Part shown: piece by piece, positions 9,175-13,780 of the stretch
How the letters are laid out: each line of letters begins with the position of its first letter
Position numbering within the stretch: position 1 is the stretch's first letter
NCBI RefSeq assembly: GCF_001007875.1
Contig: NZ_CP011412.1
Location: 3,596,001-3,660,000 of the forward strand
Length of the DNA stretch: 64,000 nucleotides
Direction: 5' to 3'
Source of the DNA: Sedimenticola thiotaurini
GTDB taxonomy: Bacteria > Pseudomonadota > Gammaproteobacteria > Chromatiales > Chromatiaceae
Notes under the pieces: model-generated
The model's input: only the letters and a program-made list of their open reading frames with translations
Told to the model about the DNA's origin: nothing
Database searches by the model: none
Position numbers and translations under genes: made by a program

Positions 9175-10101
9175 ATGAACAGATCACTCTCCATTGAACA
9201 GCGGGCCATCGGTGCCTACCTGGGGCTGGCGGTCGGGGATGCCCTCGGTGCCACCACCGAGTTTCTCACCCCCAATGAAATCCGTGACCGTTACGGTGTG
9301 CATGACAGCATCATCGGTGGCGGTTGGTTGCATCTCAAACCCGGCCAGGTGACCGATGATACCGGCATGAGTCTGGCCCTGGGGAAGGCGATACTGGCGC
9401 AGGGGGGCGTCCAGGCGGTACCGGTGGCGCGGGCATTCAGTGACTGGATGCGCAGCAAGCCGGTGGATATCGGCCACACGGTACGGCGCGGCATTGTGCA
9501 CTTCCGGGACAGCGGTGTGCCCGCCGTGCCCGAGAACGAGTTCGATGCCGGAAACGGTGCCTGTATGCGTTCCCTGCCGGTCGCTATCGCCTACTGGAAC
9601 GCCCCGCCTGAGCTGCTGCTGGAGGCGTCCCGTATCCAGTCCCACATCACTCACAACAATCCCCAGGCCGATGCGGGTACCGAGGCGGTACTGCACATGC
9701 TGGTCGCCGCCTTTCGGGGCGAACCCTTATCGACCCTTCAACAGATTGCCGGACAACTGGTAGCGCAACAGCCCGCGTACCGTTTTGACAGGCGGCCGGT
9801 GCAGAATCCCGGTGGCTGGATCGTGGAGACCCTGCAGGCGGTGTTTCAGTCCCTGTTCAACCAGGGTACGTTGGAAGCGATATTGATCGACGTAGTGAAC
9901 CGCGGGGGCGATGCGGATACCACCGGCGCCATCGCCGGCATGCTGGCGGGTGCCTGTCAGGGCGTCGAAGCCATTCCGAGACGCTGGCTGCGGGCGCTGG
10001 ATCGGGACGTGCGCAGCGCCTGCGAACAACAGGCGCTGGCGTTGTTGGAGTTGGCGGCAACCGCCCGGTGGGCCGGGCCGGAATCCGCAGTGTCGAATTA
10101 A
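9175..10101 (+). CDS. draG: DraG, dinitrogenase reductase activating glycohydrolase
   Basis: A 308-aa ADP-ribosylglycohydrolase that removes ADP-ribose from the NifH arginine and so reactivates nitrogenase. Dinuclear Mn-binding motifs are visible: TDDTGMS near residue 60 and GGDADTTGAIAGMLAGA near residue 245. An AGTGAAGGA ribosome site precedes ATG 9175. DraT lies 2.5 kb away on the other strand, unlike the usual draTG operon. Confidence 0.93.
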   Translation: MNRSLSIEQRAIGAYLGLAVGDALGATTEFLTPNEIRDRYGVHDSIIGGGWLHLKPGQVTDDTGMSLALGKAILAQGGVQAVPVARAFSDWMRSKPVDIGHTVRRGIVHFRDSGVPAVPENEFDAGNGACMRSLPVAIAYWNAPPELLLEASRIQSHITHNNPQADAGTEAVLHMLVAAFRGEPLSTLQQIAGQLVAQQPAYRFDRRPVQNPGGWIVETLQAVFQSLFNQGTLEAILIDVVNRGGDADTTGAIAGMLAGACQGVEAIPRRWLRALDRDVRSACEQQALALLELAATARWAGPESAVSN

Positions 10102-10140: not shown

Positions 10141-10303
10141 GGAGTGCGGCTGTTGTCCATCCAACCCGGGTGGGCATGTTTTCTATGCCCACGGGGGAAG
10201 CGCGGTACGGATTGCAGCGTGGGCACCATGTACCCATCCTACAGGAGTGCGGCTGTTGTCTATCCAGCCCGGTAGGGTGGGCATGTTTTTTATGCCCACG
10301 GGG
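10141..10303 (+). repeat. Two direct copies of a GTGGGCAT hairpin repeat
   Basis: Two near-identical units, 10141-10197 and 10244-10303, each reading GGAGTGCGGCTGTTGTC ... CCCGG and then the hairpin GTGGGCAT-N7-ATGCCCAC (10170-10192 and 10277-10299). A third, inverted copy of the hairpin lies at 21657-21679. They look like REP-type extragenic palindromes between converging draG and the hemerythrin gene. Confidence 0.8.
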
Positions 10304-10310
10304 CACCTGG

Positions 10311-10712
10311 CTACCGGTTACCGTGCAGTTTAAGATGCGCCGCCAGGGCGCTGTCCATGGTGCGGGCATGCAGATCGAACCAGCCAGGCAGGTGGTTTGT
10401 TACATAGTCCCGGCCCATGGCGAGGGAACCCCGGGCGACTTTCTCAGCAAAGCGATCCAGCTCCCCCAGCACCCGCTGATGTTCATCCATGTGTTCACGA
10501 ATGGCGGGGAACCGGTACAGCTCCATCAGTTGCCCTTCCGATTCAAAATGGGCATGGGTGTGTCGAACCAGTTGTTCAAACAGCCTGATAAAATTGTCCC
10601 GCTCCGATTCGGCAAGCTGATTGACCAGGGAGATGAACTCGTTGTGGGTCTGGTCCATGATCTTTACGCCGAGTCGGTAGCAGGGGTTATCGGGTTTGAT
10701 AATCGGCTGCAC
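10311..10712 (-). CDS. Bacteriohemerythrin
   Basis: A 133-aa single-domain hemerythrin, an O2-binding diiron protein of the cytoplasm. The ligand pattern is complete: His23, His51/55, Glu59, His74-x3-His78 and His115-x4-Asp120. GTG start at 10712 with GGAGCG about 7 bases upstream. It lies at the 3' end of the leftward draT/SIR2 block, so an oxygen-buffering or sensing role beside the NifH switch is attractive but inferred. Confidence 0.88.
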   Translation of the reverse strand: MQPIIKPDNPCYRLGVKIMDQTHNEFISLVNQLAESERDNFIRLFEQLVRHTHAHFESEGQLMELYRFPAIREHMDEHQRVLGELDRFAEKVARGSLAMGRDYVTNHLPGWFDLHARTMDSALAAHLKLHGNR

Positions 10713-10834: not shown

Positions 10835-11728
10835 TCAGATCCGCTGTTCATTCCGTAACGGCAACGTTGCGCAGTGCTGCGCCGACATCCCGGCAGCGGC
10901 CATCAACTCGCCCACCTCGGCTTCGATGATGTGGATATTCATCCGCTTGCAGAAACGGCGCTCCTTGTCGTTGGGTTCGGCAATCAGCGCCCAGCCGGCC
11001 GGTTGGGCCGCATCGTAGATCATGTCCGACAAAACCATCCGTTCCGTATCCCGGGTCATGCGCAGACCGATGAACAGGTACTGTTTTCCGCGCCGGTACT
11101 GCTTGACGAAACCGGGAATGGCGAAGCCACCCATCAACTCGGTGATGTAATCCACATAGTCGGCATCCGAGGCGATATAGGTGGCGTCCGGCAGCGGGCT
11201 GCCCATCGGTTTGAACAGGATCGGCAGCGATGGATCCACCGCTTCCTGGGGGATCTCCCCGGCGGAGTAAGTGGTACCGTCGTAGTGATGGATACGAAAC
11301 CGGTAGTCGGTGCCGGCAACACGGGAGATGCCGCGAATCAGGGTATGGGGACGATCAGCGTAGTGCTGCTGCAGCTGGCTGTCCCGGTTGATGTCGATCA
11401 CATAGGGGGTGTGGATATCCGCCAGCCACTTATGCAGTGGTGAAGGACTCCAGCGGGTATCGCCATACAGGGTGTCGAGGAACCGGTTGACGGCGCTGCG
11501 TCCCCGTTTCAGTTCGATATCCATGGCGGCCCGGGGGAATTCATACATCAACCGCGGTGCCATGGGATTGCCGTTGTTCATGGCCAGGATCAGGCTGTCA
11601 CTGTCGGCCGGGATCGGTTCGCCCGTGTCCAGGTGAGTCACGCCTTCCAGTGCACCGGGTCCCAGGTAAGGCACAATATCGCCGCTGGTGATGCCCTCGA
11701 TGAGCGTCAGCATAGTTGTCTCTGCCAT
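10835..11728 (-). CDS. SIR2-like (SIR2_2) protein beside draT
   Basis: A 297-aa protein resembling the SIR2_2 NAD-binding family. The N-terminal IVPYLGPGAL matches the glycine-rich NAD loop (residues 18-27). IDINRD (residues 111-116) matches the TNYD motif, and LFKPMGSPLP near residue 175 sits where the family has the catalytic His of a KLHGS motif, here Met175. An AAGGAG site precedes the ATG. Placed between draT and hemerythrin, it is probably linked to NAD-dependent control of nitrogenase. Catalysis is doubtful without that His. Confidence 0.6.
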   Translation of the reverse strand: MAETTMLTLIEGITSGDIVPYLGPGALEGVTHLDTGEPIPADSDSLILAMNNGNPMAPRLMYEFPRAAMDIELKRGRSAVNRFLDTLYGDTRWSPSPLHKWLADIHTPYVIDINRDSQLQQHYADRPHTLIRGISRVAGTDYRFRIHHYDGTTYSAGEIPQEAVDPSLPILFKPMGSPLPDATYIASDADYVDYITELMGGFAIPGFVKQYRRGKQYLFIGLRMTRDTERMVLSDMIYDAAQPAGWALIAEPNDKERRFCKRMNIHIIEAEVGELMAAAGMSAQHCATLPLRNEQRI

Positions 11729-11871
11729 GTTTGGTACTCCTTGACTAGTGGGTATTAGCTGTCAGGAGCAAGAGCCGGGCCAAATGGGGTGTTGGCTGTT
11801 GGAACAGTAACTTAGCTGTTTTTCTGTATGGCGGGGCAGGGACAATTGTCGGGTTTCCTACACCGTTTCTG

Positions 11872-12717
11872 CTAGAAAGCGCTCAGGTTCACCTCGTACA
11901 CGCCGCCGATCACCAGGTACTCATCTTCGCCACTCAGGCGGCCCGGCAGCAGGCCCGGCAGGTAGGCCAGCTTGCTCAGGGGTATGGCGGCTTCCAGGAT
12001 ATAGTCACCAAACTCGTCGGCCCGTTCCCGGTTGCCGGTAAAGGAGTTGATGTTATTCAGTACCAGAATGTAACGATGTCGGCCCGGTTGATGCAGCACT
12101 TCGTGTTCATTGATTCGATTAATGCCACGGTACAGGGTGAGATGGGTCTGTCCGGGAAACTGCCGGGCTATCTCGTACTGGCAGTAGGTGTAGAGCAGAT
12201 CGAGCTGGGACTCCAGCGCGTTGGTGTTGTACAGCCCCTGGGTGCGGGCCGCCAGGTAAGCCTGGTAGGGGAGCGAGTTGATATCCCCCACCGGTCCCTG
12301 GTGGTTGCGTGGCAGGAGGCCGAAGCGGGACTCCACCCAACCTTTTAATACAGCCGCCTCTTTACTGTCGGGATCGAACAACCAGCCGCGCAGAATGCGC
12401 AGGTAATCGGCCCGGCCCCGGTGCTTCTTGCCGGGGCGTTCGGGCAGGCCGGCCTCTTCCGGGTGATCCAGTAGAAACCCGGAGCGCATGTAATCCTGAA
12501 AATTTTCCGCTCGCCGGGTGGCATCGTCGATCCCATCCAGGCTCTGGAACAGGGCGTCGTGCAACTCCGCCACGCCGTCCAGGGAGAGCGGCGCCGGGTG
12601 GTGCTGGAAAGTAAGGCTGCCAAGGATCACCGGCGGCAGATTGCAGTGGTTGAGAGAGCTTCTGGCGTGGGCCGGGAGCGAGGCGTCAGCCGCTGTGGTT
12701 TGTCTGTATTCATCCAT
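11872..12717 (-). CDS. draT: DraT, NAD+-dinitrogenase-reductase ADP-ribosyltransferase
   Basis: A 281-aa ADP-ribosyltransferase that modifies the NifH arginine (Arg101 here) when ammonium or darkness/energy limitation signals. The R-S-E type active-site parts are visible: LTLYRGINRI, LNNINSFTGNRE and the C-terminal GEDEYLVIGG. It is divergent from nifH and shares the 188-base intergenic region that holds the NifA site, so expression may be tied to nif induction. Confidence 0.93.
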   Translation of the reverse strand: MDEYRQTTAADASLPAHARSSLNHCNLPPVILGSLTFQHHPAPLSLDGVAELHDALFQSLDGIDDATRRAENFQDYMRSGFLLDHPEEAGLPERPGKKHRGRADYLRILRGWLFDPDSKEAAVLKGWVESRFGLLPRNHQGPVGDINSLPYQAYLAARTQGLYNTNALESQLDLLYTYCQYEIARQFPGQTHLTLYRGINRINEHEVLHQPGRHRYILVLNNINSFTGNRERADEFGDYILEAAIPLSKLAYLPGLLPGRLSGEDEYLVIGGVYEVNLSAF

Positions 12718-12732
12718 ACATTTTATTGGGTT

Positions 12733-13780
<1,048 letters not shown>

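Follow-up and report, generated by a model that had tools for sequence, protein, structure and literature searches.

A SIR2_2-fold protein beside draT in Sedimenticola thiotaurini as a probable nitrogenase accessory with an incomplete catalytic dyad

Why does a SIR2-like gene stand inside the DraT/DraG control locus of nitrogenase? In Sedimenticola thiotaurini (contig NZ_CP011412.1, positions 3,596,001 to 3,660,000, a stretch of 64,000 nucleotides (nt) referred to here as the window), an open reading frame (ORF) of 297 amino acids (aa) is flanked by draT on one side and by a bacteriohemerythrin gene on the other, all on the - strand (Table 1). This confirms the placement in a preliminary description of the sequence, which suggested that the protein might be a third component of the DraT/DraG switch. 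We think it is best read instead as a nitrogenase accessory with a SIR2 fold and a degenerate catalytic site, under NifA/sigma-54 control and independent of DraT. The gene is a variant of a nif-cluster SIR2 family already noticed in print but unexplained, and its product is a gamma/beta window-type member of this proteobacterial SIR2_2-fold nif accessory family, the other type being the nifT type.

Family membership and the tie to nif genes

The ORF starts at an ATG preceded by AGGAGT. Its product scored 32.3 bits against the Pfam model SIR2_2 (PF13289), above the curated cut-off of 24.5, and the same model was matched by 14/14 and 17/17 aligned relatives at the E-value limits used. Fold comparison revealed a Rossmann-type SIR2 domain, with ThsA, KomC and DSR2 as the nearest solved folds. 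Both the SIR2_2-like identity and the Rossmann fold suggested in the preliminary description are thus borne out, and a chance ORF was rejected on the same two grounds. Searches against NCBIfam and the PADLOC models gave no match at E<=1, and a viral structure search gave nothing at E<=0.001. The SIR2 gene itself is the single family match in the Sedimenticola genome, and full-length matches number at most one per genome among the order and phylum genomes listed.

The family follows the nif genes. In the phylum sample (396 genomes, the window genome left out) it was found in 21 genomes, in one of them as a fragment (G515; G and L numbers are our handles for genomes and loci). NifD was detected above the cut-off in 19 of these carriers, and the other two (G214 and G355) have a NifE-like match only, below the cut-off of TIGR01282 at more than 300 bits. 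A NifD- or NifE-like match is therefore present in 21/21 carriers (Fisher p ~2e-18, uncorrected for kinship), in agreement with the nif association assumed earlier. In the order sample, the family was found in 66/147 genomes, draT in 72 and NifD above the cut-off in 74. With G072 excluded from the order counts (L144, a weak 27% match in a long ORF, no nif gene being found in the 11 kb available), 63 of the 65 carriers have NifD above the cut-off; the others are G128, with a partial nifD, and G010, with a decayed nif locus. In G010 the SIR2 gene is broken in two (L145, C1:164000-180000), and next to it are a nifQ match and a partial match to draG; this genome has nifD matches below the cut-off only and no draT match, and its SIR2 gene decays along with nif.

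Where 5 kb are available to either side of the SIR2 gene, a nif or dra gene is found near it in 43 of 51 loci. In all six plasmid neighbourhoods examined, out of 72 plasmid records, the nifT-type gene follows nifT at a distance of at most 2.1 kb, and in five of the six nifB and nifZ are found further upstream. By position, nifT is within 2.1 kb of the family gene in 15/21 phylum carriers (13 of the 15 neighbourhoods opened). A DegT-type aminotransferase recurs between or beside nifT and SIR2 in the nifT-type clusters L032, L033, L147-L151 and L156, often accompanied by a 2Fe-2S protein and short genes of no named family.

Sigma-54 promoters and NifA sites have known consensus sequences, and matches to them were counted in the 200 nt upstream of each gene (sigma-54 match score >=9; expectation from dinucleotide shuffles). 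A sigma-54 match was found in 54/74 dereplicated window-type loci (1.04 expected), at 45-70 nt from the start in 49/74 (0.18 expected), and an exact TGT-N10-ACA within 200 nt in 35/74 (3.24 expected). As positive controls, the same scan recovered sites before 35/35 nifH and 19/19 nifB genes. It found no sigma-54 site before draT (0/23), draG (0/23) or the hemerythrin gene (0/37); these zeros are read as no enrichment, since chance alone gives 0.3 to 1 hits. The NifA motif precedes 1/37 hemerythrin genes. Eight loci show neither a nif nor a dra gene in the available flanks, and six of them (L072, L082, L084, L096, L099, L103) have the sigma-54 site at 53-59 nt. Three Thiocapsa loci (L084, L096, L122) have no nif or dra gene in up to 10 kb on each side of SIR2; their sigma-54 match scores are 9 in L084 and L096 and 8 in L122, and a DEAD-box helicase gene lies beside SIR2 in L084 and L122. 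Of the nifT-type genes, 3/19 have their own sigma-54 match >=9, as expected of operon genes that are transcribed from a more distant upstream promoter.

NifA control is also suggested by the 'SIR2 family protein' Rcc03262 of Rhodobacter capsulatus, which was detected in the wild type but not in the nifA1-A2 double mutant (PMC6925177; this and the papers cited below are used from excerpts unless the main text is named). Its gene is the last of the operon nifB1-rcc03265-nifZT-rcc03262 (PMC6925177). The wild type contained 6.6-7.3 fmol of Rcc03262 versus 325-405 of NifH and 2-5 of NifE/NifN (PMC6925177). Going by this one table, a role in assembly or control would fit the amounts better than a stoichiometric partnership with NifH.

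Residues at the catalytic dyad

Residues of the dyad were mapped by alignment to ThsA, a nicotinamide adenine dinucleotide (NAD) hydrolase (NADase), and transferred via a family alignment of 118 unique sequences including that of the window, uncorrected for kinship. The structure alignment comprised the window protein and 69/77 usable relatives. Left out of the family alignment were L066, L023, L106, L142 (in-frame stop) and L145 (199-aa fragment); loci L002-L030 partly repeat the genomes of L064-L143. The ThsA chain 8bto carries Ala at position 112, and the protein of 8BTP is ThsA N112A (PMC11263360).

The window protein keeps N114 and has M175 where ThsA has the catalytic His152, which agrees with the Met175 assignment of the preliminary description. 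In the window type, position 114 is Asn in 100/100 sequences and position 175 is Met in 60, Leu in 35, Thr in three and His in two. In the nifT type, ThsA Asn112 aligns with the Trp of a 'WYD' motif (Trp in 18/18), and position 175 is His in nine, Leu in four, Ile in two and Tyr, Trp and Ser in one each; ThsA His152 aligns with the residue before the Gly of 'YKPxG'. Asn and His occur together in only 2/118 sequences, leaving the dyad incomplete in 116/118. Both exceptions, L120 and L134, are from Marinobacterium and lend themselves to a test for residual enzyme activity. The window protein also has GPG in the glycine-rich loop and GLR in place of the GFS/GYS motif. Away from the dyad, the conserved blocks SDxDYV and Pro at 205, joined in the nifT type by EIDIQTPIP, are candidate surfaces for a ligand or partner.

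NAD cleavage by ThsA is abolished by N112A and likewise by H152A; the authors warn that the latter mutation affects oligomerisation as well (PMC7272460). A description along the same lines is given for the catalytic pocket of DSR2 (PMC11263360). Judged from these alignments, the window-type protein has probably lost canonical SIR2 catalysis. The deacylation of NifH or DraT considered in the preliminary description is unlikely, as the full dyad is lost in 116/118 sequences.

The best surviving alternative is an active enzyme with altered chemistry, namely a NAD-dependent deacylase, NADase or ADP (adenosine diphosphate)-ribosyltransferase acting on nitrogenase or NifA, which we consider improbable with so few complete dyads. 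It would be consistent with the invariance of N114, D116, H99 and H128 in 100/100 window-type sequences, of which H99 or H128 could supply the base. It would also be consistent with ZMO1821 of Zymomonas mobilis, which is up under N2 fixation and was called a likely deacetylase, in an organism with reported acetylation of NifA, NifH and NifK (PMC8600466). Given the incomplete dyad in 116/118 sequences, this deacetylase reading, published in one paper, needs testing.

The draT, draG and hemerythrin neighbours

In the window, nifHDK lies on the + strand and is directed away from draT, which is probably a transcription unit separate from the SIR2 gene (Table 1).

Table 1. Features at the SIR2 locus of the window
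Feature	Position	Strand	Evidence and remarks
nif-associated SIR2_2-fold protein, 297 aa	10835..11728	-	ORF, PF13289, fold, conservation, residue match to ThsA
Bacteriohemerythrin-like protein	10311..10712	-	PF01814; downstream of SIR2, gap 122 nt
draT, dinitrogenase reductase ADP-ribosyltransferase	11872..12717	-	PF07357
draG, ADP-ribosyl-dinitrogenase reductase hydrolase	9175..10101	+	TIGR02662 above cut-off; convergent with hemerythrin gene
nifH, DraT target	12905..13780	+	Named from own sequence and place before nifD (TIGR01282)
Sigma-54 (-24/-12) promoter-like site TGGCCCGGCTCTTGCT	11767..11782	-	54 nt upstream of SIR2 start
NifA upstream-activator-like site TGT-N10-ACA, palindromic	11847..11862	-	134 nt upstream of SIR2 start
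Sigma-54 site TGGCACAGGCTTTGCT upstream of nifH	12818..12833	+	Positive control

A third component of the DraT/DraG switch, which would sense NAD or ADP-ribose and tune DraT or DraG, was rejected as the main explanation on draT co-occurrence, distance and promoter counts, and we rate it slightly below the active enzyme. Within the order, the counts favour it: draT is present in 63/63 nifD-positive carriers versus 9/11 nifD-positive non-carriers (p 0.02). However, with draT so common on both sides, the order alone cannot separate a tie to nif from a tie to draT. Across the phylum sample the consistent co-occurrence of SIR2 and draT is lost, with draT in 8/21 carriers (not found in the other 13) versus 19/25 nifD-positive genomes without the family; these counts are read as no positive tie rather than as exclusion, because the sample is uncorrected for kinship. 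Moreover, a whole-assembly search found no draT in 13 of 20 genomes carrying a window-type gene, which were picked among loci without draT nearby and are of unstated completeness, some being metagenome-assembled. Z. mobilis has ZMO1821, and draT and draG are given as not identified there in the available excerpts (PMC8600466, PMC8594446).

Distances point the same way. Among the 63 order genomes with both genes (a list that omits G072 and G010), draT lies within 0.6 kb of SIR2 in nine, namely that of the window and eight others, which speaks for the switch; it lies at 0.6-10 kb in eight, at 27 kb-2.9 Mb on one contig in nine, and on a different contig in 37, many of these assemblies being fragmented. 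The locus set comprised 80 named loci from one contig scan, with at least 570 relatives among the 594 candidates listed. Of the 70 listed loci with 1.5 kb upstream, 15 have draT on the same strand, 11 have a divergent nifH without draT, and 44 have neither. SIR2 thus adjoins draT in a minority of cases (9/63 and 15/70). Nor is there a promoter type in common: most window-type SIR2 genes have a sigma-54 site of their own, and no such site was found upstream of draT or draG. The placement in the switch made by the preliminary description is not upheld by these counts; a lineage-specific link to DraT could still hold where the two genes adjoin.

Just as improbable as the switch component is a single NifA-driven unit of SIR2 and hemerythrin for oxygen or redox protection of nitrogenase. 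In its favour, 31/71 listed loci have a hemerythrin gene at most 1.5 kb downstream of SIR2 and in the same orientation, and in 19 of these the available upstream sequence contains no draT. The lack of a sigma-54 site before hemerythrin fits as well. However, 40/71 listed loci have no downstream hemerythrin, none is annotated in the six plasmid nifT-type neighbourhoods (gene tables incomplete), and we only infer joint transcription. A phage-defence SIR2 NADase sitting in the nif region by chance, as the nearest solved folds might suggest, has next to no probability and was rejected, with no PADLOC match, an incomplete dyad, a family tied to nif genomes and a nif-type promoter site.

In the intergenic stretch where draG and the hemerythrin gene converge, positions 10141-10303 hold a 34-nt unit twice, each copy followed by a palindrome-like unit GTGGGCATGTTTTNTATGCCCAC, the arms of which were judged by eye; the repeat listing gave no inverted pair >=14 nt. 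This pattern has exactly two copies genome-wide, both here, and is possibly a bidirectional terminator pair.

Proposed role and comparison with known systems

We hold it very likely that the protein is a nif accessory independent of DraT. That it is this and has also lost canonical catalysis is on the whole probable, slightly less so than the loss of catalysis taken by itself.

Several points weigh against this reading. The family is missing from 25/44 nifD-positive phylum genomes and is therefore not essential for fixation, and its edge is not perfectly sharp, as the weak match in G072 (27%) has no nif gene in the 11 kb around it. No sigma-54 match >=9 was found in 20/74 loci, a NifA-type motif precedes 3/23 draT genes, and the counts of context and promoters are not independent, as the genomes behind them are related. 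NifA dependence was measured in R. capsulatus only, for a nifT-linked protein known by its name and place, and no mutant, biochemical or functional test of the family was found in the accessible parts of the open-licence literature. As for the pocket, N114 is kept in 100/100 window-type sequences, and His occurs in 2/100 of these and in 9/18 of the nifT type, which makes altered chemistry conceivable. Neither ThsA N112A nor H152A bound NAD+ in the assay used (PMC7272460), which argues against NAD binding by a dyad-deficient pocket.

In the proposed mechanism, the SIR2 protein would be made together with nitrogenase under NifA control, would lack NAD hydrolysis of the ThsA/DSR2 type, and would serve nitrogenase rather than the DraT/DraG switch. 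The remodelled pocket might be used non-hydrolytically, binding a dinucleotide or a similar phosphate-bearing ligand, and the ligand-bound state would control docking on a nif partner, either an assembly factor or the Fe protein. This ligand-gated docking is the least certain step of the proposal and is put forward tentatively. The NAD or ADP-ribose sensor suggested in the preliminary description may apply. A pseudo-sirtuin switched on with nif, which senses the cell's NAD(H)/ADP-ribose state and gates the assembly of nitrogenase or the function of its Fe protein, is unlikely, less so than any of the alternatives above; if true, it would provide diazotrophs with a second NAD-linked control point, with or without DraT. 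Setting the SIR2 gene apart from DraT/DraG shifts the question to fixation itself in a draT-free strain, and for the engineering of nif clusters this conserved gene is a candidate accessory.

Related genes have appeared in several reports. The nif operons of Rhodovulum show the order nifZ, nifT, 'SIR2-like protein' (PMC9412634), and in P. stutzeri the 'SIR2 family protein' PST_1325 is numbered next to nifH (PST_1326) (PMC11332353). A SIR2-family gene was described in nodules, with no link to nif drawn in the excerpt (PMC11227200), and the term 'SIR2-like' was not found in the main text of PMC7860042. By name and place, Rcc03262, ZMO1821 and PST_1325 would belong to the family. Over the SIR2 domain, six plasmid relatives among the nifT-linked 'SIR2 family' proteins share 24-29% identity with the window protein, and they too match SIR2_2. 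The window type differs from the nifT type in having Asn rather than Trp (18/18) at the dyad, in its frequent location apart from nif genes or on the side of nifH, draT and hemerythrin, and in having mostly its own sigma-54 site, compared with 3/19 in the nifT type. Compared with the NADases ThsA (of Thoeris), KomC and DSR2, the window protein has Met for the catalytic His, the GPG loop and the GLR motif; unlike ThsA and DSR2, it is a single domain without extra parts and has no defence context. Classical sirtuins (SIRT1, SIRT3 and archaeal Sir2) are a weaker structural match to the window protein than the NADases, and in comparison with them, too, the window protein is set apart by its lack of a His at the position of ThsA His152.
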